Below the pieces are notes generated by a model. The model was not told where the DNA came from. It saw nothing but the letters and a program-made list of their open reading frames with translations, and did no database searches. From assembly GCF_000165425.1 (NCBI RefSeq), contig NW_001799640.1, positions 133,825 to 197,824 of the forward strand: a stretch of 64,000 nt of DNA, given 5' to 3'. Positions within the stretch are counted from its first letter, which is position 1, and each line of letters opens with the position of its first letter. The stretch comes from Paramecium tetraurelia. Taxonomy: Eukaryota > Ciliophora > Oligohymenophorea > Peniculida > Parameciidae. Position numbers and translations under genes: made by a program. Below are positions 5,953 through 54,800 of the stretch, one piece after another.

Positions 5953-8900
5953 TCATTCTTCATTTTCTTAGATTAAATTGACAGATCCTTCGACTTATAA
6001 GAATGTTCCACCACCCTTGATGATTCTGCCTGAGTTAAATCCTTGATTTGCGAGTAGAGCTGACAAGATTCTATCAGGAGGAGGTGCAGGATCAACTGGC
6101 CACTCTCTTGGTTCTGGACTTGTAGTAAATGCACCATCGCCGATACCCAAATACCAATCAAAGGCTTCACCCTAAAGAAATGAGAATGATCAATACATCA
6201 AATTGTTTGCCATAGCCATCCTCAGAGAAGAACACACTCAAATAATTTGGAACAAAGTGATAGATCTCCTCAAACAGATAGGAGTTGGCTGTTTGATCTA
6301 TTTAACGAATATAAGCATAGGCTTATTTAAGATGGAAGGAATATCCAAAGTAGAAGTATGTCCATTTACCCCAATATTTGCCAATTTCAAATTTCTTGTC
6401 GACTAAAGATATAAATATAAATAATTACTTGAGCCAACATCATCATCTATAGTTTCAATGTCTCCCATAATCATAAGTACTGAAATACCAGACACCCTTT
6501 ATCAATGAAGATGGACAGAGTTCTATCTCCTGCATTGTCATTATCAGCTTGGATATCTGGAGTATTTTATGTGACTCTGACAAGTGAAGTCCAATCAGTA
6601 ACATTCTTTAATTTATTACCCTTAGCAAATCCATAAACACTGTATTCAAAGACACCACTGTATTTCTCTTCATATGATTTGAACACTCTTTAAGTCATCT
6701 TGGCTTTTTCTACTTAGACTGGTTCATTATCTTATTTATCTTTGTATGGTGGATAAGGTCTGAATTTAGGAACAATAACGTTGAGTAAATCTTCACTTGA
6801 ATCAATATAACTGTTCTTGCCCAAAAATGCTCTTGGATCAAACAATTTACCTTAGAAGGCTGAATGTCCAAATTCTTTCTTTCCAATAACGAGTCTGGCA
6901 TAATCTCTCAATAACCAATGTTTAGCACTGTCAATTTCAACTCTCTTAACAACATTTTAATGAGTAAGATAAACATATCCAATACCCTTTGGTCCAGTTG
7001 GAATTCTCTTGTAGCAGAAATAGACGAAATTCCAATATCCTTCTAATTCCTTATCAAACTTAGTTCCTGTTGTGATCTCATTCTTATCAAGAACTGCATC
7101 ATAAGTGCTGAATTTGTATTCTCCTCTTCCTACAAATGCTGATACTGTTCTGTCTCCATTCTTTTAAGCATCTTCGTATTAAGCATTTGTTGTGAATCTA
7201 AATATGGAGTGGGATTCAGCTTTTTCTAATAAAATGAATGGATAGTTCATCAACCATCTAGTCCATAAACCAATACCATATTCATATATGGCTTCAATGT
7301 CAGATCCTGGGAAATTAGTCTATGTGAATTCAACATCCAATGCTGGTTTGTCATCTTTAGCATAAATCAAAGCATCAGCATCATTTTAAACATAGAATTC
7401 AAAGTAATTATTAAGTTTGTATGGGATCCAAGCTGGAAGATCAACCTCAACTTCAACCTTATCAACATAGTGCCAGCATTATGTGCTACCATAACAAGCA
7501 TGAACATGTCTAGATTTACCAATGAAATTCTTATTAATTCCATCCTTTCCGAAATATACAGCAAGGTATTTTGGAGAGAAGTGCAATACTTTCTTTAATA
7601 AACCACCTTTGCTAACATCTGGGAATCCAAAGAACCAACCAGCGTATTCATCTTGTCTGGAATATCCAACCCAAATGTACATCCAAATTCCTCTATATTC
7701 TCCTAAAGCAACGTTGGTATTTCTATTAAGATTGAAATCAGTATCAATAAATCCAATGTCATAGGTTCCAATTTCCATATCTCCACCTTTCTGAATAACT
7801 GATAATGTTCTATCTCCTAACAAATTAGCATCCTTCAAGAATCCTGGCTCATTATTGGTTAATCTGATAACTGTTTATGCCTCAGTATTCATCTAGACTT
7901 CCATAATATTTGAACCATCCATAGACTGAATATTATTCTGTTTCAATTGCTCCATCTTCATATAAAAAGGTATCATATGTTTCAGTATCTTTGTTATCAG
8001 CACCTTAGATTTCATAATCCTTTGTTCCTAATTCTTCGTCAACTGGGACCTTGTATTATTCAATCCATGTTTCATATTCAGCAATTTCATTAATAAATGA
8101 TCCTCTTCCAAATCTGACAACTGCATGAGCTATTCTACCATTGAATCCATAAACAGTAGATTTCCATTATCCAACATAGAATCTAACATAATTGTTAGCA
8201 GGATCAGCATCAAATGGATCGAAAACTGTTCTTTAAACTTACTTCAATTTGTTGAAATTAACATATCCAACAGCAATTTACTTCAATTTTGAATAACTGA
8301 AATAGATGTAATTCCAATATCCATCTAAATTCTTTCCATAATTAACAGGTCTTCCTGAACCAGCCCAGAATTCATAATTTCCTCTTCCAATATATACTGC
8401 AAATTCAGCTTCATCTTAATCTGTAAATCCTAATCTACCAACCAAAATACGCTCAGGTTTCTCATAAATTCTTTATGGGTTTGTAATGAAGAATTTAGTC
8501 CACATACCGAATCCATATTCATAAACACCATCTGTTACCCAATCTGGTTCATCATGAAGTAAAGTATCATATTCAGATTCTGTTTTGTGATTCAACCATT
8601 TAGGATCATATGTTTTCAATTATACTCCAGGCCATAACTTAATCTTGCCAGTCTTATAGTCATCGAAATCTATAGCAGATCCCCATGCACCCTTTCCAAA
8701 TCTGATTGTTGTGTAGGCTGTCTTTCCATGGAAGAAAAATTAATGTCCTTGTCCCAAATAAAGTGCCCAATATTTGGCTACAACATGCCCAACCTTTGAA
8801 TTGTTTTTCAACTTTGTCATCTGGCCATTCCATGTAGTATGTGAAATCTCCATGATTATATCCAAAGTATGCATATGTCCATAATTATTGTGATTCTTAA

Positions 8901-11499
8901 GCAATAACAACTTTTTCATCGATGTCACTGAACTTGTCCTTCTCTTCAACTGTATATGTAGAGAATTAATATTCATTTTATTCAGTTTACCATAATGAAA
9001 GTGCTTTCAATCCATGAGGAATTATTCCTACTTCTGGTTCGTTGGATGTAAATCTAAATATAACTTAATGAGCTCTTTCAGATCTTCTTACATATCTAAA
9101 CCAAGTGGATACTGAATATTCTCTGTATCCATCTAAATCCCATTTGAATTTAGGATCATCGATCAAACCATCATATTCAACTTTGTCATAGTATTATTTC
9201 TCCTAATATTCTAATTCAGGGTCTGTTGGAACAGTGTATTTGGTTTCAATCAAATTTTTCATCTCTTCCTCTGTCTCAACTAATGAATTCTTATTCAAGA
9301 CAACTCTAACATTGGTGATGACTCCGTTGAATCCTTTGAATCCCTTCCAAAGTCCAGATTGGAATTTAATAGTTTTAACAATAGCTGGTTGAGTAACTTT
9401 GAATGTGACACTCTTGATTACTTAAGTTCTACCCCAGTAAATATAACCATTGGCTTTTCCTTCTTTATATCCGAAATAGACATAAATCCATTCAGCATCC
9501 AAATATTTGCCATAATCTAATTATAATTCAGTCACAACTTCTCCTTCAAATACTTAGAAATTATAGAATCCTTCTCCAATAGTTGTTACTAATCTATTTG
9601 TGTCATCTCCACTCAAACCTCCAACAGCCAAGACTTCCTTCTTTTCTGCAATCTTAACCTTTCCATTGTATCTGAAATATGTCCATAATCCATAACTGTA
9701 TTCAACTGATGTTTTAATTCTGCTATCAGGTCCATCTTCAACATCTTTTTCCCAAGGTGATGTTTCTTATGTAACAACACTGTCAGTTCTCTTGTCTAAA
9801 GTGTAAACAAGTTATTCTAATTCTGGTTCTGGTTCATCTGGGAATTCTAATCTACCGAAATCGTCATCTTCTTCCTCTTCAACTAATTCCTCAACGATTT
9901 CTTCAACTATTTCTTCAACGATTTCCTCAACAATCTCTTCAACAATTTCTTCAACAATTTCTTCTACTGTTTCTTCTTATTCTTCTACTTTTTCATCATC
10001 TGGTGTTGGTTCTACAACAACTTCCTCTTCTGGTTCTTCTTCAACAATAACTTCTTCTTCTGGTTCAGGTTTAGGTTCTGGTTTAGGTTCTGGTTATGGT
10101 TGTGGTTTGGGTTCATCCTCATCATCTTCAACAATAATAATAATTGGTTGTTCTTAACATCCTGGATATCCACAACTTGGCTAATAAGCACTTGGACCAG
10201 TTGCTGCATCAATCAGTGTATCAATCAAATCTTCCAAAACGTCATCTCCACAACCATCTTCCTCTTCTGATTCCCATTCAAATTCCTCTTCTTCCTCTAC
10301 TTCTTCTTCTGATTCTTTTTCTGGTTCAGGTACTGGTTCACATTCTTTAGCCTTTTTGGCTTCTTCAGCTAATCTCTCAGCTTCTTCTGCTCTTTTTCTT
10401 GCCTCTTCAGCTGCCTCCTAAGCCTCTTTCAATCTTCTTTATGCTTCCTCGGCATCTAAGCACGCTTCTTCTTCCTTATTTTAGGCATTTTCCAAGACCT
10501 ATTATGATTCTGCTGCTTTTTCAGCTGCTTCTTATGCCTCTCTTGCATCTTTTTCAGCCTATGTTTCAGCTTCTTATTCAGCTGACTTAGCAGCATCTAA
10601 CTCTTGTTCTGCTTCACGTTCTAATTCCTCTGCTAATTCTAATTCCTTCTCGGCTTATTATTCTAATAATTCGGCTTCTTCTGGAGTGATATCTACTCTG
10701 TTCTTCAATTCTTCTAATTCTCTGGCTTCTTCTTCCTTTCTTCTTTCTTCTTCTGCTGCTGCTTCAGCTGCTGCTCTAGCTTCTTCTTCTGCTTATAATT
10801 TTGCATCCTCTTGTTCTTACTCTTTTCTTCTTTCCTCCTCTTCAGCTTTTGCATCAGCCTGTAATAATGGTGCCCAATAATCTTTGCATTGAGAGGTTTT
10901 TTCATTGACTCTAGTGGCAAGATCATAGAGTTAATCAATTTCAATAGGAATAGTATTTAGTTATAATTAGATTTCTGTTATTTGTTGAATCAACTCAGAG
11001 ATCTTAGTTGCAATGGTTTGAGCCAATTACAATTTGTCTTCATCACCTAACAAATAGATTTTTGATTAATACTCTTTGCTTTATTGAGGACTTCCAAATA
11101 TCCCAAAATATCGTTAATATCATACCAGGATGAAGTAGATTCAATTTGAGATAGTGATTTGAAATGCTTTGAGATCTAATGATGCAACTATTTGACTTGA
11201 ATAAACGATCCTCCCTGAATATGTTAGACAGTTAGCAAAACTCTATCCACCAATGCTTTGACCATAGCCAAAACCTACAAATCTCCATCAAATCCATCCT
11301 TGTGTTTCACGATGTCTATCCATTAATCAATGTCATGCTATGCTCCCAACTACTCTTTATAGCTTGGACTTTCACAAGTCCATCCAGAGGGATCAATAGA
11401 TAAAATTGACTCCAAAGGGGTTATCTACGTCCTTGCAGACGTCTTGAACTGTAAAGACACGCTGACTAGCAGCCATGCCACTAGCAATTGCTTTAACAT
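5953..11499 (-). CDS. Giant secreted protein: coiled coil, acidic repeats and six LamG/lectin-like modules
   Basis: Six introns (11047-11072, 8794-8812, 7871-7898, 6462-6493, 6403-6428, 6172-6196) leave 5,391 nt, a 1,796-residue protein. It starts with a signal peptide, MLKQLLVAWLLVSVSLQF. Order: helical region to ~200; Ala/Glu/Arg coiled coil ~200-375; acidic stretch; Pro-Glu tract ~455-478; IVEE heptads ~500-530; then six modules of roughly 200 residues to the end. Each module opens with an aromatic signature (YGLWTYF, VSTWFRY, GMWTKFF, VYGWFKY, GLWTRWL, VYGFAKG), then a GDRT-like turn and W-x-Y-x-Y-F-x-Y strands. This pattern suggests a concanavalin A/LamG-type beta sandwich. Likely extracellular or in a secretory/cortical store; function unknown. 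The 19-nt intron and the CAG acceptor at 7871 are the weaker splice calls. Confidence 0.8.
9880..9975 (-). repeat. In-gene repeat encoding IVEE units
   Basis: Tandem near-repeats of GTTGAAGAAATT (minus strand) encode EEIVEEIVEEIVEE within the giant secreted protein. The third bases vary (GAA/GAG, ATT/ATC/ATA), so the protein repeat is older than any recent DNA slippage, or is under protein-level selection. Confidence 0.85.
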
Positions 11500-11547: not shown

Positions 11548-13385
11548 TCAGAATTCCTGAATCGAATTTAATTACACGATTGGAACCTGATCAAAGTATT
11601 CAGAGTAGTGCTTGGCCAAACTTGATGTTGTTAGTATATTGTCCTTAGGATAAAATGAAATTATAGGCAAGAGATGATAATTCTCTTCAAGAGCATTAAA
11701 TATTTAAAACTCCATAAAGTTTCTATTCATTCTGTTTTGTTTAAGAGTCAATTTATCATGTGGTCCAATCTTCCTGATAATCAACAATGATATAGGCAAT
11801 AGCAAGTCAAAAGCCTTTTAACTATTATGTTTCAACTCTCCGATGGTTTAAGGATTGATAATGGGTAAACTATTTATTGCAGCTTTACTCAAATGATGAC
11901 CTTCATAATCAATCCTTATTTTAATTGACATCTATTGATTAGATTCATCTTTTTCTTAAACCAAAGTGATATGCACATAATTAGGATGACTATTTTTTGA
12001 TCCTGATTGCTTCTCTAAAATAAAAAAAAATAGGTTTAAAAATAATTGCTTCAGCTATCTCTAGTCCTGTCTTACATAAGTATCCGGAATTTTACAATCT
12101 ATTGTGAAAAATATCCCTTTATCATCTCCAAAATATCTGACTACATGTTACTAAATCTACTCAATAAATTCTTTAATGTCAAATTTCTGAATTAAACAGC
12201 GTTAAAATTCTTTGTTTATGCTAAAGTAATCCTGAATATTTGAAAAATCATTATAGCATTTCAATAAATTGCTATTTACTTTTCTTAATAATTTATTAAT
12301 GAATACAATATTTTTAATTTTCTATTTGTTATTATAAATCCATTAGAAAGAAATTAAACTTGGTTTTACATATTCTCTAAACACATCTCCAATCTAATCT
12401 AATGCCTTCATTGCTATCTTATTTCTTAAATTAAGTTGATCAATAACATTATCCTTCTTATTTTCAATCAATAACACTAAAGCACATGGCTTTTCTTAAT
12501 ATATTTTCACTACCTTAATTGTGTAGCTTTCTTGATATAGAAATCCCTTCAATAAATATGAATTATTTGATTCTGATTAATGAATTAAATGCATGATGTA
12601 TTTCTTTTTATTAGTAAATTCATAAAACAAAAAATTCTCTAGTGTCATGTTAGCCTAATTTTCCAACACCTCTTGTGATGTAAATTAAGTAAATCTTCTC
12701 TTTGAGTCATATGATGAGACTTTTGTGTTTCTTATTTTGTCAATAAACTCATCCTGAATCTACTCTGTAATTTGCTACTACCTATTCTTTTACATTAAGA
12801 TCAACTTGTTCTTGGGAGGATTATAACTGATGATAAAACTTTCAATGTCATTATAAGTTTGTATGTTATCTTCTAAAATTTTTTAAGTATTTGCTTAAAT
12901 AAATACTTTCCTCCTGAAATTTTCAAAACAATAACAATAGTGTATGTATATACATAATTCAAAAATATGCAAAACTACTTATTCCCACAATTAAATATTT
13001 GGATTTCTAAATATCGTAATTTGAAATGTGAAAATTACTACAAGGATCAATTGCTTCTTGGAATAGCTTAGTGTGTTCATTAAACTATTTATTTTAAACT
13101 AATTCATACGCCAAAATTGTTAAAGCTTGAAAATATCCATCCAAAGAATATGTCTAGAGTTACAACTCCTTCTTTTAAAATACTGAATTATAGGGGAAGA
13201 AAAAGTTATACAAGACTAACGACATAAACAGTAATAAGTCTTTAAAGTATCTGTTGGATGAGGAAGTACATTTGAGGTTTAACGCATAAAGTAAACTACA
13301 TAATAGTAGCACTGTTAATAAGAGCCAATCCTCTCTCATGATTTTTATTGAAATCTGAAATACTACCAAAGGCAAAACGATCCAT
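11548..13385 (-). CDS. Multi-pass membrane protein with a degenerate histidine-kinase-like tail
   Basis: Starts MDRFAFGSISDFNKN. Hydrophobic helices follow (YFLIQQILQRLITVYVVSLV, then VVTLDIFFGWIFSSF), a 25-nt intron, and a further helix before FRRKVFIQANT. The cytoplasmic part (~450 residues) contains DQRQLKQLFLNLFFFIL, which resembles the N-box of GHKL ATPases (RLKQILLNL), followed by YVHITLVQEKDE and IKIRIDYEG in the place of the beta-strands that end in DxGxG; the Asp/Gly motifs are missing. So it may be an inactive sensor-kinase relative; this is inference. One frame step is unresolved near 12961-12965: either one extra T in a five-T run, or a 53-nt intron in place of the 25-nt one. Confidence 0.6.
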
Positions 13386-26772: not shown

Positions 26773-28064
26773 TCAAAATATTGAGCATTCAACTCCTATT
26801 TGATTTGGATCGTCCTCTTCATTTTCTTCCTATTTAGCTAAATGTTTTTCAAATTCTCCCAATTGAAATTCCTCCAATTTATAAGTATTTCCATTTTTCA
26901 TTGTACTATTAGGTCCTGGCAATATCTTAAAGTAAATAGCATTATTACCTCGACTATTTGATTTTTTATGTTTTAATTTAACTATGTAGGGAATTCTATA
27001 TTAAACTAAATATGTAAATCTCCAAAATGAAGTTCATCCTTAAAAGTTGGTAATCCTTTCTCCTTTACTGTCATTATTGAGTTCGGCTTTATGATCTAAT
27101 TTGTTGTCACATTTATTATTTTATCATCCAAGGTTTCTAATTCTAAATTTAACCCTGTCAGAGATTCCTTAAGTGAGATTGTTTTCTAATAGAATAGATC
27201 TGTTCCCTTTCTTATATACTATGGATGTTGCTCAATTTGCAAATAAACATAAACATCTCCATTCTCATATCCAGGCTAATTAAATATTTAAGGATTTCCT
27301 TACTTTCTAGTTTCCTTTGCCATATAATTTAACACAATATTCGTCTGGAACACCTTTCTCTATAGGAATTTCAATTTCTACTTCTCCATCTATTCTTCCT
27401 GCCCCTTTACATTATTTACATTCATTTTCTTTTAAAAAGATCTACCCTTTTCTTAGGTAATAGAATAAATAATTTACCCTTTGCAATCTGGACAAGGAGC
27501 TTATTATACTACATTCAATCCAGGTTAAACTTAGACAAGCATTTATACAATTTTTTATCCTTTGCATGATTTGCAATTGCTAGGTTATTATCCTCCTTAA
27601 CCTTGACAACTTTCACATGTTCTCTAGACGTTAGTTAATGTTTTTTTATGATATGCCCCTTGATAAACATCCTTCAATGTAATCTTATGCTCTAGTTTAA
27701 AAGGATCGCATTTTTTAAATTATTAATTCTTGACATTCAATTTTCTTAACAATCCCTGTTTTCCCTATTTATCATAAATCTTTTTTTTTTCAGGGTCAGA
27801 AAGGACCTCATTTGCCTTTTAGATTAATTAGAATTTTTGCTAGTTACCTCCAGGTCTATCTGGATGGTATTTCTTGGCTAAAGTCTTATAAGCCTATTTA
27901 ACAGTAGCTATATCTGATTAAGGGGGAATTTCTAATATTTCATAGAGTTCTTTATTATCTACATCTTCTTACTAAGGAAATTGCTCATAAAAATCTTAAT
28001 CCATTTCTTCGTCCATGAATTGAGGAAAAGCTCCAAAAGGGCCAGAAAATGGAAATCCAAACAT
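26773..28064 (-). CDS. Class A J-protein (DNAJA/Ydj1-type Hsp40)
   Basis: Hsp70 co-chaperone. Three introns (26, 28 and 23 nt) give 404 residues. The J domain covers about 38-100 with the Hsp70-activating HPD in KKYHPDRPGG and the NEVLSDPEKKKIYD helix. The zinc-finger region follows with four CxxC motifs: CESCQGQGG, CKSCKGQK, CPDCKEKG and CKQCKGAG. Then come the client-binding domains (IPIEKGVPDEY, PGYENGDVYVYL, LHFGDLHIQF, ILPGP). The end GVECSIF corresponds to the GVQCxxS end of animal DNAJA proteins but lacks a CaaX box, so it is probably not farnesylated. The usual glycine-rich linker after the J domain is very short. The Phe/Pro-rich N-terminal ~30 residues are an extension. Confidence 0.92.
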
Positions 28065-28199
28065 TATTTTGAAATTAAATTTATTTATAAATTTTTGTAT
28101 CAATCATTATAAAATGAATGAAAAATAATGTATTTCTAAATTTACCCTGAAAGATTTAATCCAATTCAATAAAAGAACTGCAAATAAATAATGTATCAT

Positions 28200-29549: not shown

Positions 29550-32099
29550 ATGATGGAAGAACGTCGTCAAAGATCGAATGAGAAAGTCAATGGATAATTA
29601 GATTATTAAACTAGGAAAATCATATCACCATAAACTGATGTGAATTTCAAAAAAGAAAATTCAAACCCTTTGGATTAAAATAGCAGCTTTTATTCATTAA
29701 AGGGTTATGAAAGATAAGCTCCATATAAATCAAATTAATATGATTAGAATCGCCAAACTGGAGAACCATTAAAAATAGGATCTACTAATAACCCATACCT
29801 TTAGCAATCTGTAAGCAATAACAATGAGTAAGAGCAAATTAAACCATTTATTCGGCCATATCAAGAAGGAGATCAAAGAAAACCATTAGATTAAGTTAAT
29901 TACAAATACGAATAGCGATAATTGAATGAAAAAGGGATTACTAGTCCTTATGGGAATATTGACAACAAAAAAAGAGATACAATAGGAACTAGGACTCCTT
30001 TTGATCCAAACGTAAATATGAGTTCTTAAACTCCACTATCAAGATAAGATAATTGCAGAAGAGATACTTAATTATCAGAATAGAAACGAGAGTTTCAATT
30101 GCCTGAATACAAAAGAATGTATCCAGAGGATCATCATCGAATTCATTAGAGATAGATGAGTTCATTTGACATGAAGTAGATGCCAGTTGATCAAGGAGAT
30201 AGAACTAGATATGAATAAGAAAGAATTAAGACATTAGGAGGATAATAAGAATAGCCTGAAAGAATGGACAGATTGATAAGAGCATCTGATTACGTGAGGA
30301 AACCAGACAATAATGATTTATATGAATAAGATAAAAGAGTATTAGAGAGAAGAGAATAATATTAAAGAGGAGGAGTTGAATAGGGTTTGTATGATTAAAG
30401 AAATTCTGCTAAATCCTAAGAGTATTCTTAGAGACAATAAAATTAAATTAGAAGACCTTAGGAAGTTTCGAAAACTCCTGTTGAAGGAAGAGTTAGTTAA
30501 AAAAGAGGCTTTGATGATCAAATACAATAGGATGGAAAGTTTAATTAATCACAATATCCTGAAGGCAGGATTTAATAATAATAGTTTTATGATATACCAC
30601 CTCCCTTAGATGATCAAAGAAGAATGCCCAACCCTTATGATGAGAGAAGATATGCAAATCCATATGAACATAGACCCTAAACTTAAGATTAGAGACCACC
30701 TTTTGAAAGAAGACCAGATCGACCTGAGAATGAAAGAAGGTTAGAACGTCCTGAATTTGATAGAAGACTTGAATTCGAAAACAGATCTCCTTATTAAGCA
30801 AGATTTGGCCCGGAAGTAAGACCTGAAATGGATTAAAGAATACCCCCAGAGTATAGAAATTAGTAAGGGTATAATTATGAAAGATTTTAATAATATGGAT
30901 TTAGGTAAGGTATGGAAGAACAATATCAAAATGAAGTTAGATAACCATAAAAGCAATAATTTCAAGAAATACCAGCTTGCAATTATCCAGATAGATTTTA
31001 AGAAGCGAGTTATGGGATGAACTATAGAAAATATCCAGACGCCCGATTTATTTAGGATGGGTAAAAAGAAAGGAGAGAGTTCTTAGAAGGAAGCTTTGGA
31101 ATAATGCAAGGGAGACCTGAAGTAACATAAGGAAGACCTGAGTTACCGTAAGGAAGACCAGGATTGATGGAAGGAAGATAATAGTAAATTGATGTTAGAG
31201 GGGGATTAAATAGGACATATGGAGAAGAACTCACTTAAGGTGCTTCAAATGGATTCGATGGACGCAGAGAATAGTTTGGTATCAGGCCTCCAATATAAAG
31301 TAGACCATATGAGGAAAGAGGAAATTTTGAATAAAGGGTTCATATTGAGACTAAAAATTAATATTAAAAGGAATTTGATGATAAGTTTGGTGATAGATAT
31401 TTTGAATAAAAATATACACAAAAATAAGACATCATGGGGAGAAAAGACTTTGGTAGATCTGATTATGGAAAATTGAGAGAAGAATTAGATAGAAGGAATA
31501 ATTATGAAAGACCAGTAATGGAGACAAATATGTCAGAATTTGGAAAAAGAAGAGAGTTTGATGGTGCAACAAGACCAGAAACAAATTTTGGAAGGACTAA
31601 TGATGTAGGATAGAAGCCAGATGAGAGGTATTTAAGAAGAGAATATCAAGATTAAGGATAGAAATTGAGTTATCATAATGACACTTCAGTAATGGATAGA
31701 TTGGGGTTGGAGAAAGGAACTAACTTAAAGATCATAGGTAATTAAGCTGCTGAAAATATGTTGAGAGGAGGTCAACCAATGAACAGATAATACGATAGAG
31801 AGAGAGGATTGAATAGATTAGGAATGGGAGAAAGAGTGGGTAGTTTTACTAATAATAAAATGGGGTATTAAAGAACAGCAGTTTAAGATAGAGAGGAGTA
31901 TTAAGCTTATGTTAGATCCAAACTTTTGCTTAAGCCAGCATTAGAGAATGATACGACTGACTTATAGAGAATGAAATCCCAAGATTAGGGATTCCAAAAA
32001 TGTATTTATATTAATCATATTTTAGTGCAAAGTCCTAAGGGCTAAATTGATACTCGGATTGGAGGTTATGATATTTAGAGGAGAGAAGGAAGGATTTGA
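29550..32099 (+). CDS. Large disordered Arg/Gln/Tyr-rich protein (849 aa)
   Basis: A single uninterrupted frame of 850 codons from ATG 29550 to TGA 32099, far longer than chance even with only one stop codon. The composition is extreme: Arg, Gln, Asp/Glu, Tyr, Pro and Gly dominate, with loosely repeated short units such as RPYEERG, RRPDRPENERR, GRPELPQGRPG and REEYQAY. Almost no hydrophobic runs, so it is predicted to be disordered. It resembles RNA-binding or condensate-forming low-complexity proteins, or a cortical scaffold; this is inference. Only the last ~60 residues (KCIYINHILVQSPKG) look more ordered. The next gene, convergent, ends 33 bp away. Confidence 0.8.
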
Positions 32100-40970: not shown

Positions 40971-43900
40971 TCATAAGCCTTAATAATTAAGTAATTTTTA
41001 TAAGCTGAAAATAATCGTTATCCTATCGTAAATTCCTTCTGACACCTTAACAATTAGATTATATGGGGAATATTCTCTTACACTGATTTAATAGACATTT
41101 TTATTAGGAAATCTACTTGCTTCTTGCAATCCTCCAAATAAAAATAAAATCTATTATTTTTATATAAAATAGTCACTATCACATTCATCATCAATCTACA
41201 TTGATATATGAATTTATATTTTGAATGACTATATTACACATAAAATCATACTTATTAATATAGGTTTCTAAATTGATACTCTTTTTATTTGTTCTTAGAG
41301 CTGTAATGCTTTTCAATTCCAACTTTTAAAATTCTATCAAACTTTTCTTCTATTTTATTTAATTTGTTATATAATCGCTACTCTACTTCAAAATTTTTAA
41401 TGCAGTATTGTACGAAACTTGATTAAACTATATTATTTTATTTAAAGTAATTACAGTTGAATAGTTATAAATGCATTGGCGAAATTAACATTTTAAATTG
41501 ATTGTTTTGCTCTCAAATGCATTTAATTATTTGTATGAAAAGTAAATGCATGTACTTTGTGACTCCTTCAATGTTACAGAACTATACTTTTCAAACATGG
41601 AACCATACTCAACCTGTTACTGCTCGAAAAATATTTCTGCTTGATAATCATCATCAATGAACACTCGTTTTGACACTCTACTATATAATATGATAGTTTA
41701 ACCCTAATTGTCTCAATATGCCTCTGTAGGAATCAATTTACAAGATATATTTGTTATAATTTGTCATGATAATATTACATTCATCAATCATTTATTCCCA
41801 AAACTAATTTAATATTATGAAACTACATAGCATAAAAAGTATTTATAAGTTAGATTAGTAGATAGAACTGCATCTTCCAAAATCTTTTATAGTTTCACAC
41901 TATCGTAGAAATTATCAAATTTTGTTACTGATGGCTTTATACTGACTCTTTCTTTAAAGTCTAATTTATTTAGTAACATTAATAGTCTTACATTAAATTT
42001 CATGAGAAACTCTTTGAGGATTCTTTTATTTACTAAAGTGACATTTAGAAGTAATTTTTTTGCTTTCTGATTGTATTAAATTTTTGTTTTAAATTTTAAA
42101 TGAAGTCTGTTCTTATTTTATTTGAGGTTGATTTTATTACAGTTTTTCATATTAATCTTTATATTTTTACAAACTGATAGAAGAAATGCCAGATCTTTCA
42201 CTGAGTCTAGATTTAATTGAAAATTGATCATCTACATTAATGCATTCTTTGTCTTTCAAATAAGTAACAAATGTATTGTATCGCAATGGAATTGAATTAA
42301 AACATTAATCAAAATTATCTAAGATATTACCCGGAATTATTTTCTCTAATTTTGATTGATGTAAATTATTGAAATCATGTTTTGATAAAACACTTCTAAA
42401 TAGTTTACATAATTTTGGGATGTATATTTAGATGATTATTTCATTGTTAAAAGTATTGTAAAATAAAGAAAAAATTAGAAAGTGGGAGTTAAACTTTTTA
42501 ACTTTTTGAAATATCAGTCTAATTACTTGTTTCTATTTAACAAATAGATTAGCTTTATAATCTGATTTCAGATTTTCATTCAATTAACTTACATAGTTAA
42601 ATTCTGAATTTACTGATAAATGAACTTGTTGTTGATTCCTATTATGTGAAAGACTCAATTTATTTTTTAATATTAATGCCTTTTCCTCCAGATTTTGGTT
42701 TTGAATACCAAAATTCTTCAAATCATTATGATTAAGGTAAGTTTTATATGATGATAGTCGTTTTTCAAAAGGATATATTTATATCTCCAAAATGATTAAA
42801 TTTTAAGCCATTGCATATTCAGTGAAATAAATTAGATTAATTCCTGTGAAGTTATCCAATTTTGAAACCAACTGAAACTTAGTCACTTTACAATAAGTTC
42901 TTAATAAATTCTTGATATAGCTTTATTCGTTTGCTACAAGATGTTTTAATATAACATTATAAACATCTGTAATTACACATGACTTTAATTCATAATTGAA
43001 TATTTATTATTAAGAATTCTAAAATCCAATTTACCAACATCTACCATTTGCCTTGTAATCCTTTAAAAGATAATAATTTAAAACTCTCTATATTTATTGA
43101 AAATTTCCAATGGTTGGTCTACTTTGTTAATGGATTATTTTACGGAATAGATCCTGCAATTTTGTTAGACTAGATTAAGTTAATATTCGAATGAATCTGG
43201 GTTATGAAATTTTGTAAACAAAAAGTTCAAAAATATCATTTCTTTAATAAGTGGATTGTTTAATTCTAAATAATACTCTGGATTAGTTTGGAGGTTTATA
43301 AAAAAAGATGTAAAAATGATCTTTATTAATTTAGTTAGAATCTGTAACCAAAGATTTTCTTTATAATTTCTTTGTGAATCGATATTCTGGAAAATTGAGA
43401 TCTTTATTAGAGTATTTGGAATAATTCTTATTATAAATTTCTTGATGATGCAATTAATGAAGAAATGTAAGTTTGGCTATATAAGGTAACGATCTAAAAT
43501 ATCCGAGATGATTTTTTATAATTATTTCGTTAATGTTAATTAATTAGCAAAATTAACTAAGAGATAAACTGGTTGATCCATTTTCAGATTGGCCAACTTT
43601 ATGTTAGGTGATAATAAAGTGGCCAAATAATTTAGGGTTTTCAAAATTAAATGTAAAGGATAAATTATTGATTGTCCATCCATCTTCATTTTTCGAAAGA
43701 TAACTTAATAAATTTTACCTAATAATAATAAATAATTATCATACTAACTTTGATAAGGATTCAAGGGTATATCCTTTTTCTGTAATATATCTCTTTACTT
43801 TGGATAATTCTTGAAATAGTCATCAATCAATTTTTTCTTTGATTTTGAATTTTTTAGTACTTTATAACTCATGGTTGAAGATAAAGTATTATTTTTCTTT

Positions 43901-46670
43901 CTTGTTGGAGGAGTCATTGGAGTTTTAGGAGATATTATAACTGATTCACCTGAATAGGGGCTTAAGTCTTCTTCTTCAATAACTTTATCTTAAAATGCAA
44001 TCTTAAATGATTGAGACCTGAGATCTGCCCAGTAATTTTTGGGTGAAGATCCTTTTTATTTTAAAACAGGAGAATGTAATTCAATAGCTATGGATAATGA
44101 TTTCATTAATTTTTAATTTCTGACATTAGAATTCTTAATACTTATGTAACCATTTCCAATTTGAGATGGAGTAAATGCTCTCTTTATCATTTTTCTTCTT
44201 TCTTCTATTTATTGATATAGAGCTACCTAATTTTCAAGGATTTAATCAGACAATGTTACTCGTCTGAATTTGGATCCATTTTCTGTTTTCATATGTAGAA
44301 AGTTACTGATAAATAACTAATTGACATGATTAGAGATGCTCTGACATCCCTTTTTTAACATATCCTATCTCAAAATAGTTTATTTTGTTAATATACACTA
44401 AGTGGTTGCTCTCAATGATTGGTTATAATTAATCCCATGAGATGAAAAGTACACGTGAATTAATTATGAAACCATTTCAATACTTGAGAATATGTTCTCA
44501 AAATCTTTGGCTATGTTATGAATATTTTTAAGATGTAATCGAATATCATAAAGTCGACTGAACACTTCTATCTAAATAGTCAACACAAATATAGCATTGG
44601 TGCCATCTATACTATTACTCCAAATTTCTATGATTTGATGATATTTTGGATATTCTTTATATAGTTTAAGGATGTCAGGATGAATTTAGGATTTCTTTGC
44701 CTTCAATCTTTTAAATACTACCCATGAAATGTTTCTGATCTTCCAATTAATGGCATTTATTTATCTGATCGGAGAAAATATCATCCAAGTTTTAAGTGAT
44801 CCTTAGTCAATCACTTGACAGATATGAAGTATTGATTTTATTTTAGCTATCTTTTCTTCAATCTAAATATTTTTTGTTGCTCCTAATTCAAAGATGAGAT
44901 TGGAGAAGTTTTATTTAGCAACACTCTTTTTCATCAATTCCTCTTTCTTCTGAGCCTTTTGTTTTTGGACAAAGTTTCTAAAATTCTTTATAATCATTCT
45001 TAATGCATCTTCTTATTAAATATCATACAAACAATCTATTCTATTACGTAAATATTCAAAATCGATTTAATGTCTACTCCTTTCATTGCTAGTATTAAGA
45101 CTATAATAAGATTGGCCAATTCTAGGTGAGAAATTGAATTCAAATTCTTTTTACCCTTTATTTTAATCATTTATTGATTCTGATGCATCTTCACTAATTT
45201 CACATTATATAGATTTTGAATCAAAAACTTTAAGATTCAAAGATTCTTTTATTTCTATTTTCTATTTTGAATTGCTTTTCACTAAATTGACTTAATGCAT
45301 TTTTATTTAACTTTTCTTAAGAATGTTACCTCTGTTTAATTATTATTGAGATGAATTAGATTATTATTGATGATGATGTTTTTATGGAGTAGGTTATGTT
45401 TTCAGAATCTTTTTCGAATGTTTCTGTCTACCAGTCAATGGGCGTGGTAACAATAATTCTGTCATAGTTCCTGAGATCTAATTATCAACTAATGAATCAA
45501 TTTTTAGAGATCCTTTTAATTCACTATTGGTTGTGTTTAAACGAAATTAAATATTTGATTTAGTGTTGAAATTGGAATTTTACAATGGAACGAATAAATT
45601 GATTTTTTTGTCTGACACTCTAAACGAGGTTTCATTGAATTTTTATCTAATTTTCTTAGAAGGTTCAAAGGTTGACTCTTATGTTGTTAATTTTTCTATT
45701 TCACTCAAATGAACTGTTTTTCCTTTAGTTTTATTGGTTACTTTTTTATTTTAATGGTTGTAATATTGAAATTCTAGGCCTTATTTAAAAATATCGAAAT
45801 TCGGAATTGATTATAACTGTTAGAATTTAATTTTTCTTTGCCTTTCGTGATGCTCTGATTGATATAATTAAGTGATTTTGTGATCAGGCCCAAAATATTC
45901 ATTTGCTAAATTGAATGCCTATTCAATATGTTCAATCTTGTTTGATTATTTATAAAGCATATAATAGGTTTTAGCTTTTATTTGATTGATTTTTTGATCT
46001 TTCGAGTCTATTAATAATAAATCTTCAGCATTTAGAGATTATTTCAAATGATATTGGGCTTCTGCCAAAAAAAAAAACAATGAACTTCTTGTGAATTGAT
46101 CAATCTTCTATTTTATAATATTCGGCAACTTTTCAAATTGTTGTATATGATCCTAGATTAAGTCTATAATGGATTGCCATTCTTTATCTTTTCTATATTG
46201 CAAACAGAGAGGCAACGATTCCTAGAAGATTTGGGTATACTTTGCTATATAATCTTTGGATGTGAGACTTTTCATTAAACAATATATATTATTTAATCAA
46301 TTTAAAAGTGTAAGATTTCTCAACGCTTTTCTTACAGAAGGATATAGATCAGAGTAATAGATTCAATGCAAAGAAAAAGCCCTGTCTTCCACATTTTTGC
46401 AATTTATATTTGAGCAGTTTTACATATTGCAAGATTGTTCAAAACTAGACGTCTTGTTATTAAAACTAAATTATGAGATTTGATATAACTCACATCTTTG
46501 TTTGGATATTCCAACATGATATCAATACCCAAAAAATTCAAAGAATCTAAAATTGATGTATTAAATCTTAATAGTATAAGCAAAATTAACATCCTCAATG
46601 TTTTCTTCAAATCAGGAAGGAACATGAGCATATCTTCAAATTTCTGATGCAAATGGGAGTATTTCTTCAT
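40971..46670 (-). CDS. Very large TPR/IQ protein, unknown role (about 1,800 aa)
   Basis: Most of this span is one gene: spliced frames run from ~46250 to ~41200 through introns of 30, 20, 22, 23 and 22 nt. The N-terminal part is helical and TPR-like (FFFLAEAQYHLKQSLNAEDL, TYYMLYKQSNKIEHIEQAF). Then comes a Gln/Ser/Lys-rich linker with His/Gln runs, an IQ-like helix ALRMIIKNFRNFVQKQKAQK, more helical repeats, and a long C-terminal part. Two places are uncertain. Near the start (46260-46440) the frame needs a 68-nt intron, or meets two TGA codons. At the end a 49-nt intron (41151-41199) adds an exon with ILFLFGGLQEASRF; without it the gene stops at 41191. These two are longer than any firm intron here. 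Confidence 0.65.
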
Positions 46671-48661: not shown

Positions 48662-49861
48662 ATGAAAAAGTATTTATAATGTGATAGTAAATTTTGGTCA
48701 ATAACAATCGAAGAAAACGATGAAACAAAGTTATTCATCAGATATGGCAATTTGTGTGATTATGAAGAGTTGAATGTAAAAAAAGTGGAGAAGTAATTCC
48801 CATCAAAAGAAGAATGTTAGAAATATTGTGAAGAAGCATCCAAGACAAAAGAAGATAAGGGATATTAAGAAGTGGTGCCAGGCCAATAAATCTAATAATA
48901 AATACAAAAAAATGATTCACCCATTTAAAATCGTCCTGTATAAACTAAGTAGCAATAAAAACAAAGCAATGCTATTAAAAGAACTGGATCATTAAAGCCA
49001 GATACTATAGCAGCAATTACTGATGACGCTTTGAATGGAAGGTAATAAGCAATCAAAGGTCCAGCTGTTGATTTGGGAAAAGGTACAATTCCATTGGGGA
49101 AAGTGATGTTAGCATAAACATGGAATGAAGAAATTGATCCAAAGGGATATTATTTAAGTGAGAAATTGGATGGCATGAGAATGATTTGGACTGGTTCGAA
49201 AATGTATTCAAGAAATGGCAATCCCATTCAATTTCCTGACTTTTTTGTATAAGGATGGCCCAAATCTTATTTGGATGGAGAATTGTGGTTAGAGAGGGAT
49301 CAATTTTCAAAATTGGTTTCTATTACCAAAAGATAAGTTCCAGTGGAAGATGATTGGAGAAAGGTGAAATACATGGTTTTTGATGCTCCTGGATTAAAAC
49401 TACCTTTCAAAGATAGATATTTGAGATTTAAGTAGGCATGTGAATAAGCAAATTAATACATAGTTTATGTACCTCATATAGTTTGCAAAGGGTATGATCA
49501 TCTGATAGATGAACTAGAAGCTGTATAGGATTTGGAAGGAGAAGGGTTGATGTTAAGAGATCCAGACAGCACTTATGAATAGAGAAGATCAGACAAATTG
49601 TTGAAGGTGAAAACATTTATGGATGATGAGGCTACTGTATTGGCTCATGAAGAAGGAACAGGGAGATGTTAAGGAATGCTTGGGTCTCTGAAGGTTAAAA
49701 ATACAAGTGGAATAGTGTTCAATATTGGATCAGGTCTGACTGATGATATCAGATAAAAACCACCGAAGATTGGTTCCAGGATCACGTATAAGTATTATGG
49801 AGTGTCTAAAAATAATGTGCCCAGATTTCCAATATATTTGAGAGAGAGACCAAAGGAGTGA
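48662..49861 (+). CDS. ATP-dependent DNA ligase with N-terminal WGR domain
   Basis: A single-exon gene of 399 residues. Residues ~1-75 match a WGR domain (FWSITIEEN, LFIRYGNL, then a Lys-rich helix and GY). After a Gln-rich linker comes the ligase core: motif I SEKLDGMR with the nucleotidyl-acceptor Lys at about 164, SRNGNPI (motif Ia), YLDGELW (motif III), GEGLMLRDP (motif IV) and LLKVKTF (motif V), then an OB-fold with GSGLTDDIR and GSRITYKYYGVS. It is a small ligase of the type found in bacteria, phages and kinetoplastid mitochondria, joined to a WGR domain known mainly from PARPs. Role is DNA nick sealing; compartment cannot be told. Confidence 0.9.
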
Positions 49862-51850: not shown

Positions 51851-54800
51851 TCAAAAAATTTAGACTCCCTTTTACCTCAATTTATCAACCTTTGTATCTC
51901 TAATAGTCAGAAAAGTCATTACGAGTGTCAATTGTTTAAGTTCAGGCATAAGAGATCCAATTCCCATTTGAGTATCCTATTAAATTTCTTAATTATTAAT
52001 TCGAACTCTAATTTGTTATTCTAGTCTTCTGGTCTTGTTATCCTCTGAACTATAAATAAAGTCCTCAGTGATCTAAATCGATTAAGATTTGTATTAAATA
52101 GGAGCCTAACTAACATCTTATATAATCCTATTGACCATTTCTGCTATTGTGTTATTCTAAGAGACTTAACATACAATTGGATTACACAACAACACAATAT
52201 CAACACTTTACAAAAAGCAAATCAAATAAATATCAGTTCCAAGGACGATTGGTTTTATAAATTTAATTTCATGTTTATATGTGTATCTTGATATCTTTTA
52301 TGTAAGATCTAATTAGACTTGAGCTTGTTTTTTATCCTTTTTCGAAATCAATAATGGAACATGAGTAGTGGGAGAGAGTTGTTCTTACTCCATGAATTCT
52401 GCGAAACTCATACTCTTTAAGATGATATAAGTTTGATTGTCAACCTAAAAGCTCATTTGTTCTTTCAATGCTCCTATTGGTACTATTGTTTATTTATAAC
52501 TAATGTTATTATCAAATTAGATCAGTTCTTCTATTTTCATTTATTGTTACAAGGTTTAGATGTTCCCCTTTTTGTCCTTATATTTGATCTAAATGTTTTC
52601 TTGTTTACAATCCTCCAATTAAGCAAGGAAATCTAATAAAGCAGAAGTAGAATCATTTTTATTAAATAACTAAGAAGTGCATTAGGATTCATTGAGTACT
52701 TTGATTATGACTTCTCTTAGATTGTTGATTTATTCGATATCTGTTTCCAATTCATTCTGGAAATCCAAATAAACTTAAATATATTCCGTATTTTTAAACA
52801 TTGAATTTTGCTATCTAAATTCCAAATTGTCATTTTAATAATAGATTTTAATTTAGTTATTATTAGTGTATTCTCTATTAATGGTATCTAAAATTGGTTA
52901 TCCCTTATCAAGTAGCAATATTTAATCGAATTCAATTATTTTATTAGAGTAGGTCTTAATAATGACTAATACTTTGTTGTCTACTATACTTTTATTTTCT
53001 TTAGAATTCTTGCCTCCTCCAATTTGAGGCATTAAATCTAATTTGATTTTATCAACTCCAAAATAATTGTTAATGAGTATTTGATCTTCGAAATTAGTAG
53101 AAAGTAACATTAATCCAAATAAGTAGATTTTATTAGCCAAATAGAATGACAGATTCTTTTGTGGTTGCATTTAAATAACTGATTCCAAATTTGGTTTCAA
53201 ATGTGATATTTTATACATTAATAAATGTAGATATTTTTTATCTACATTTATCTTTTCACTTAATTGATCAATGATCTATTGAACAGTTATTATTTTAGGA
53301 ATAAGTAAAGGTGTTGTATATTAATCAAAGAATTCTTCAATGACATTTTAATCAATAGATTAATTTAAGGCAGATTTATGAAAAATGATACCTGTTTTCA
53401 TTTGCTAACATTGATTCTGATTCAAATGATTGATAGTGAATATATTTGTTTAAATGAAGTGTCTTTATTCAAATTGGGTGTCATTATACAACTGCTCTTA
53501 CTTCAGAATCCACTCTGGGAAAACCTTTGGACTTACTAGAATATCTGGTAAATTTGCTTTGATATAAACCAACATATAAGCAGTTTCAGGATTATTCTTT
53601 TTTTTAGTGATGATTTCATCCAAATCTCCATCATAATCAGCTTGGGTATACTGTCCACCGAAGTTATTCTGGAATACTTCTTATTTAGTAGCTCTGGTAA
53701 CTATTTTATCATCGAATTTGAACCATTCTTAAGAGTTTTGGGTAGGTCTTATATAACAGTAATAATGACCATGGTTAATTGCTTCACCTCTATGTACTAA
53801 AACAGCGTACAGTTAATAGATCTCATCTACTTAATTGATTAAGTACTATTTGAAATTGATTTCATCATCATATTAGAAGTAATCATGAATCTTTGTAAAT
53901 CCTTGTCCATCAAATTGATATCTCTTTAAATTTATGAGTAAAATTGGAGGCAATTTCTTAAATCTATGATATTTGATTGCTTCCTGTTTACCATACACAT
54001 CATGAGTATAAGCATCCAATTATTCAGATTAGATGAACAACTCAAGAGATTCATTCAGAGAATTGGTGATATTCAAAGAGATGTCCATAAACTATTCAGA
54101 ATTTGAATTGTCAAACTTCTCATTCTTTATGTGATTCTCCAACTCTCCTTGAAATAGTTCATTAATGTCTTTCTCTATTTCAGGCACCTTTATACACATA
54201 GCTTTGAGAAGTTCCATGATGAATTCTTAAACATCCTATTAAAGAGCTTATTGATCTTTGTCCCATTTGAATGACTTAATGATTTCTTATGTCGAAATGG
54301 CTATCTAACTGTGTCTTAGATTGTAGAACAGGGCTTGTAACTATAAATAATCTTAAGAATAATTTACTGTGCATGGAAACTAATTGTACTAGTCAGACTT
54401 TATTGAATAGACCAGTTTCTCAAATATACCCAGATGAAATAGAATCTAAAATACACTATTCATATAACAGGTAGCTGAGTTATTGATTATACCTGTATAT
54501 CCTACTTCATCCCGACTATTGTATTTTGGTGCTAGTTCTATAAGAATTTCATTCTGCAAACACAATTGTTATTCCTTGACTTTTTGAGTGAGTTAGAGTT
54601 TTAGAAGATTGTCCTTTGGTTCTATTTTGATGTCTTTTTATTTTTTTGTTTTTTTGCTCTAAATTGAACTTGATAATTTATAAATTTTTCTAGGGAAACT
54701 ATTATTAAATTATACGAGTGATCCAATTATTGGCTAACAGGTTTACAGCTAACAAAAATACTTGCATTATCAGCCTTATTTTCAAATTCTATCTAGATAT

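Follow-up and report, generated by a model that had tools for sequence, protein, structure and literature searches.

To our knowledge, lectin-fold domains form giant arrays chiefly in the extracellular matrix of animals. In Paramecium, the trichocyst matrix proteins (TMPs) form a multigene family of small, secreted, acidic coiled-coil proteins, and we know of none that carries an array of concanavalin A (ConA)-like domains. Here, we describe a gene of Paramecium tetraurelia whose product is predicted to carry six such modules in tandem. It lies on the minus strand of a 64,000-nucleotide stretch (contig NW_001799640.1, positions 133,825 to 197,824; hereafter "the window", whose numbering we use). 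For comparison, 176 TMP genes are annotated, of which 118 are up-regulated after exocytosis (PMC3091696).

The closest superfamily is that of the Laminin G (LamG)/ConA-like lectin-glucanase domains, among them Pfam PF13385 (Laminin_G_3), the sialidase CBM40 and trans-sialidase lectin domains, the legume lectins, and the LamG/PTX-like domains of PAPP-A and ADGRG4. The window modules resemble this superfamily in their predicted sandwich fold but differ in that their Pfam matches are weak and their family has two alternating subtypes.

Two alveolate systems also offer parallels. In Tetrahymena, ConA/LamG domains occur in Mdl1p and in two proteins associated with it, all of which act at mucocysts, the organelles homologous to trichocysts; Mdl1p is described as a 40-kDa protein with one LamG domain, a predicted membrane helix and three Cys pairs, which functions in mucocyst docking and discharge (PMC9159632). 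Like the window protein, Mdl1p is a ciliate secretory-pathway protein, and its ConA/LamG domain is predicted to face the granule lumen. The window protein nevertheless falls outside the Mdl1p family so described, having six modules in 1821 amino acids, no transmembrane-like stretch, and Cys residues (10 in all) placed otherwise. The Plasmodium LCCL/LAP proteins are likewise large and of alveolate origin, and some carry LamG domains in tandem, but their domain types are mixed, and LAP orthologs are reported to be absent from ciliates (PMC11285972).

Two alternating module types and their family

Profile searches show that the window gene belongs to a large family of predicted genes in this genome, in which A and B modules alternate along the arrays; as defined here, a member begins with A and ends with B. 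Its own modules are ordered ABABAB, forming three A-B pairs that score 130 to 212 bits per module against hidden Markov models (HMMs) of the two types; these HMMs were trained on the family, window modules included, so the scores are not independent. When the residues of the module region were shuffled 200 times, no shuffled sequence matched them at E <= 10. The modules open with aromatic motifs at 9685 (GLWTYF), 9103 (STWFRY), 8502 (GMWTKF), 7917 (YGWFKY), 7265 (GLWTRW), and 6629 (VYGFAK), spaced 582 to 652 base pairs (bp) apart. A sequence-only reading of this DNA had proposed six regular modules with Trp-containing openings every 580 to 640 bp. The six modules and their openings are there, except that the sixth has Phe and the spacing is slightly wider; what escaped the reading is that the modules fall into two homologous types.

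Profiles built from four paralogs per module align to one another (hhalign), as that reading had suggested checking. Like pairs give 96.7 to 98.5% for modules 1-3, 3-5, and 1-5, 95.4% for 2-4, 98.6% for 4-6, and 30.9% for 2-6; among the nine unlike pairs, 5-6, 2-5, and 4-5 give 91.0, 82.9, and 80.1%, and the other six at most 27.3%. A description as six equal modules was rejected on the clear A/B split in the family-wide HMMs. The two types are homologous to each other (hhalign 99.9%, E 2.6e-36; E 1.1e-34 from separate alignments of 30 A and 26 B modules). Among the most conserved positions, many hold aromatic residues or Gly or fall in GDR/EY motifs, and B modules share a conserved His and the D of GxD.

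Searches with three single-module queries (E <= 0.001) gave matches on at least 31 of the 231 contigs of the 69-Mb genome, with near-identical copies on some. The HMM search covered 22 models longer than 700 residues from the fetched relatives; three had no module, and the remaining 19, window gene included, held 201 module matches that alternate without exception. Where adjacent modules lie less than 80 residues apart, all 181 pairs alternate and 0 are of like type. The assigned type outscores the other by 25.7 bits or more (median 117.7; where the other type gave no match, its score was set to 0). These 19 models are not 19 genes: the giants on contigs C69 and C63 are each split in two, the two C228 models are perhaps one gene, and the window gene with its paralogs accounts for four models.

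Arrays range from the six modules of the window gene to about 34 in the largest relatives, which puts the window protein, called giant in the sequence-only reading, near the lower end of the family's size range. Ten modules each are seen in six models (C149, C163, C188, C197, C207, and C215), and cut stretches on C174 and C81 hold 9 and 10. In each of the giants at C69:594176-616741 and C63:126869-149515, two models part within a single A module, and joining them gives 34 modules; when frameshifts are penalized less, each giant is covered by a single model (7492 and 7528 residues; five and nine frame corrections, respectively). By eye, the two giants break at roughly matching positions of one A module. 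The A-to-A spacing is 408 to 444 residues in 70 of 83 cases, and 397 and 408 in the window gene. Between two large family genes, the gene model at C69:579423-589677 (~3,380 residues) has neither A nor B modules. A literature search found no description of the family, judged mainly on titles and abstract openings and with most subscription journals outside its coverage.

Trees were built from 49 A and 50 B modules of 8 of the 19 models. The last A modules of all eight arrays fall on one side of a branch (95/91), as do the last B modules (99/99). Window B1 and A1 group with third-last modules (85/83 and 95/91). Window B2 groups solely with the second-last modules of the two C69 arrays (97/88), apart from the B4 modules that the 10-module arrays carry, and window A2 is placed without resolution. 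In the large C69 model, modules of roughly the first eight pairs group together. Since the last A and last B are shared across arrays, the arrays in these trees have a common C-terminal end, and the module groupings indicate that their length differs on the N-terminal side.

Predicted fold of the modules

The modules are predicted to adopt a ConA-like lectin/glucanase (LamG-like) fold. AlphaFold2 models of A2 and A3 match ConA-like folds, in keeping with the jelly-roll definition of an antiparallel beta sandwich of ~150 to 200 residues. The LamG/lectin-like fold named by the sequence-only reading thus finds support in two models of moderate confidence; the Pfam matches are weak. Among 30 A modules, one has Laminin_G_3 (PF13385) as its lowest-E match (E 0.003), and among 26 B modules two do (best E 0.0053). 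These E-values imply scores below the curated cut-off of 27.6 bits, which leaves the modules outside PF13385, and unrelated families score nearly as well in single modules (Vac_ImportDeg, E 0.0037; MqsR_toxin, E 0.0091).

A Pfam search of the gene and relative stretches (8 sequences, 5 further family stretches) gave nothing over the cut-off and no Laminin_G_3, and a PDB search by sequence (one protein, two profiles) gave nothing at E < 0.3. Genome-wide, Laminin_G_3 matches seven places at E <= 0.01, six of them over the cut-off and none overlapping a family match (listed in the table). The place at C54:76739 and a match to a B module at C54:83502 are ~6.3 kb apart.

Gene model, remaining domains, and selection

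The gene was read in ciliate code 6 (TAA and TAG as Gln), which yields 57 stop-to-stop frames of at least 200 residues in the window; in translation table 11 no open frame reaches 150 residues. In line with a Paramecium genome, a calmodulin sequence of that genus matches one locus at 97% across residues 1-148, and the matched stretch includes four TAA codons. It runs from an ATG at 11499 to a TGA at 5955-5953 in four exons, and the sequence-only reading had these ends exactly right. That reading had overlooked three tiny introns and four single-base frame breaks, and the length of 1821 residues is obtained after leaving out both. The introns keep their positions in three paralogs, most intron letters being different; other gene models in the window have introns of 22 to 29 nucleotides (nt). 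Under the same reading, the paralogs on C24, C196, and C14 have 1825, 1820, and 1816 residues; their identity to the window protein is 99.1, 94.9, and 75.8%.

A single extra base occurs near each of 8790, 7889, 6497, and 6466 in the window copy and is absent from all three paralogs. A frame broken by four insertions might mark a decaying pseudogene, but we consider this very unlikely. Codon comparisons reveal strong purifying selection on the window gene and its three paralogs: the ratio of nonsynonymous to synonymous substitution rates (dN/dS) is 0.033 against C24 (142 synonymous and 20 nonsynonymous changes), 0.055 against C196, and 0.100 against C14. Module B3, which lies partly downstream of the last insertion, shows 13 synonymous and 0 nonsynonymous changes relative to C24. 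Other members are broken too, with two extra bases in C24, one in C196, and none in C14, and some of the corrections that the C69 and C63 giants required in automatic modeling are perhaps missed introns. Because selection on the protein appears to have been strong until very recently, assembly error is likelier than decay, and the four extra bases are most likely such errors. Codon bias, taken as a sign of high expression, gives a mixed picture: TTC makes up 55 of 90 Phe codons in the window gene, against a share of 0.10 to 0.46 in nine other window open reading frames and of 0.39 in the C14 copy.

From N to C terminus, the protein comprises a hydrophobic leader, a putatively helical N domain, an Ala/Glu stretch read as coiled coil, an acidic stalk, the six modules, and a 44-residue tail. 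The leader, Ala/Glu stretch, and Pro-Glu and IVEE tracts of the sequence-only reading are all present in the sequence. The leader is present in the C14 copy and, by eye, in the C69 giant; also by eye, each of the two giants shows a stretch resembling a leader, and a similar CSP motif occurs in its N region. Beyond the paralogs, an HMM of the N domain found one relative, the C188 gene with 10 modules (24.8 bits, E 2.9e-6), and tblastn with the N domain, coil, and stalk matched the paralogs alone at E <= 0.01; these searches covered the fetched loci, with several other 5' ends outside that set. Asp and Glu outnumber Lys and Arg by 66 to 29 among the 180 residues of the Ala/Glu stretch and by 75 to 6 over residues 386-555. 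A tail is visible in 15 gene models: an NQ..(x)S.(K/R)(I/V/L)-like motif is present in 10 of them, NSAKV only in two, and neither in three. No transmembrane-like hydrophobic stretch was found in the family gene models, some of which miss an end. In three giant-type models, SG-containing repeats (e.g., PKSGQV) follow the conserved tail (L035:1454-1741 on C69 and L038:5303-5515 on C63), and in the C163 relative, which has 10 modules, a very long poly-Gln tract (L042:9001-10000) precedes the first module, in the place that the acidic stalk takes in the window gene.

Table. Features of the window gene and genomic matches to Laminin_G_3
Feature	Coordinates	Strand	Remarks
Whole gene	5953..11499	-	1821 amino acids
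Exons	11499-11073, 11046-6429, 6402-6197, 6171-5953	-
Intron 1	11047..11072	-	26 nt, GTA..TAG; position kept in three paralogs (26/26/27 nt)
Intron 2	6403..6428	-	26 nt; position kept in three paralogs (26/27/25 nt)
Intron 3	6172..6196	-	25 nt; position kept in three paralogs (25/25/28 nt)
Putative signal peptide, ~residues 1-22	11434..11499	-	Hydrophobic leader by sequence MLKQLLVAWLLVSVSLQFKTSA and hydropathy
N domain, residues 24-205	10859..11430	-	Cys42 and Cys196; helical by inspection; contains intron 1; conserved in three paralogs
Ala/Glu-rich stretch, residues 206-385	10319..10858	-	Read as coiled coil by sequence inspection
Acidic stalk, residues 386-551	9821..10318	-	Cys408, CGYPGC (Cys 434, 439), PEPKPEP, (IVEE)n tracts
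Module A1, residues 552-756	9206..9820	-	HMM A, 153 bits
Module B1, HMM residues 750-945, drawn from 757	8638..9205	-	HMM B, 130 bits; extra base near 8790
Module A2, residues 949-1150	8023..8628	-	HMM A, 174 bits; AlphaFold2 model of 8023-8613
Module B2, HMM residues 1149-1346, drawn from 1151	7434..8022	-	HMM B, 159 bits; extra base near 7889
Module A3 (last A), residues 1357-1581	6729..7403	-	HMM A, 212 bits; AlphaFold2 model
Module B3 (last B), HMM residues 1580-1777, drawn from 1582	6088..6728	-	HMM B, 174 bits
Contents of B3		-	Introns 2 and 3; extra bases near 6497 and 6466
C-terminal tail	5956..6087	-	NQGFNSGRI motif
Laminin_G_3 places	C54:76739, C60:229042, C78:16273, C148:4497, C211:144757, C2:234275, C223:10687

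Elsewhere in the window, Pfam names a DnaJ/Hsp40 protein (26901-28103, minus strand), an ATP-dependent DNA ligase with a WGR domain (48662-49858, plus strand), and a UCH deubiquitinase (51854-54217, minus strand). Three long open frames have no Pfam match at E 0.001: 11551-13335 (minus, 595 residues), 29553-32096 (plus, 848 residues), and 42886-46296 (minus, 1137 residues).

Proposed role and alternatives

On balance, we favor the reading that the window protein is a soluble, multivalent rod of ConA-fold modules, either granule cargo or surface coat, that acts as a scaffold or adhesive. A secreted scaffold or adhesive fits because the protein has a leader, no membrane span, an acidic stalk, an Ala/Glu stretch, and a multivalent lectin-fold array. 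The protein would enter the secretory pathway, with the N domain and coiled coil driving oligomerization. The domain pairs would form a rod, many faces of which might bind glycans or one another, and the acidic stalk could bind Ca2+ or basic partners and allow dense packing. The number of AB pairs may set reach or valency. Its destination would be either the secretory granule, as trichocyst-type cargo, or the surface coat. We rank a granule scaffold first, tentatively and by analogy with Mdl1p and its partners, which act at Tetrahymena mucocysts (PMC9159632); a surface coat ranks second and is rather doubtful.

Several points weigh against the soluble-rod reading. The tie of the family to trichocysts is drawn by analogy. 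The structure models cover two A modules, with mean predicted local distance difference test values of 62.6 and 62.8 (best of five; 34 to 56 for the remaining four of each job). No ligand-binding residues were identified, and the 1821 residues contain a single N-x-S/T site.

Two other roles compete with a scaffold. The rods might instead project from the pellicle as a surface coat or prey/substrate adhesin and bind glycans of bacteria or mating partners, which overlaps our second-ranked placing. The lectin-like fold, the multivalency, and the many loci noted above would suit an adhesin, but the gene models lack a membrane-anchor-like stretch (with the same caveat of missing ends), and the paralog proteins are very constant (dN/dS 0.03-0.10), unlike a fast-evolving recognition protein; we regard this role as somewhat unlikely. 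Alternatively, the ConA sandwich could be purely structural and bind no sugar, the array serving, like those of other giant repeat proteins, as a spacer or a spring. This is a real possibility, though short of an even chance, and it fits either location. The rather fixed unit length (the 70 of 83 spacings given above) argues for it, and the conserved aromatic, Gly, and GDR/EY positions may be structural; the conserved His and GxD aspartate of the B modules, on the other hand, could equally be functional.

The soluble-rod reading can also be taken further, to a length-programmed fiber with a fixed C-terminal AB cap, a variable number of ~424-residue AB units, and an N-terminal oligomerization head, which would build a periodic lattice of the trichocyst or surface coat. 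We consider this improbable; if true, the AB fiber lattice would be a structural system unlike any described extracellular matrix. A strict two-type array of up to ~34 predicted lectin-fold domains in a single-celled ciliate would be an independent case of repeat arrays that grow and keep their register. The family also provides named candidates for poorly known parts of the trichocyst or surface coat.

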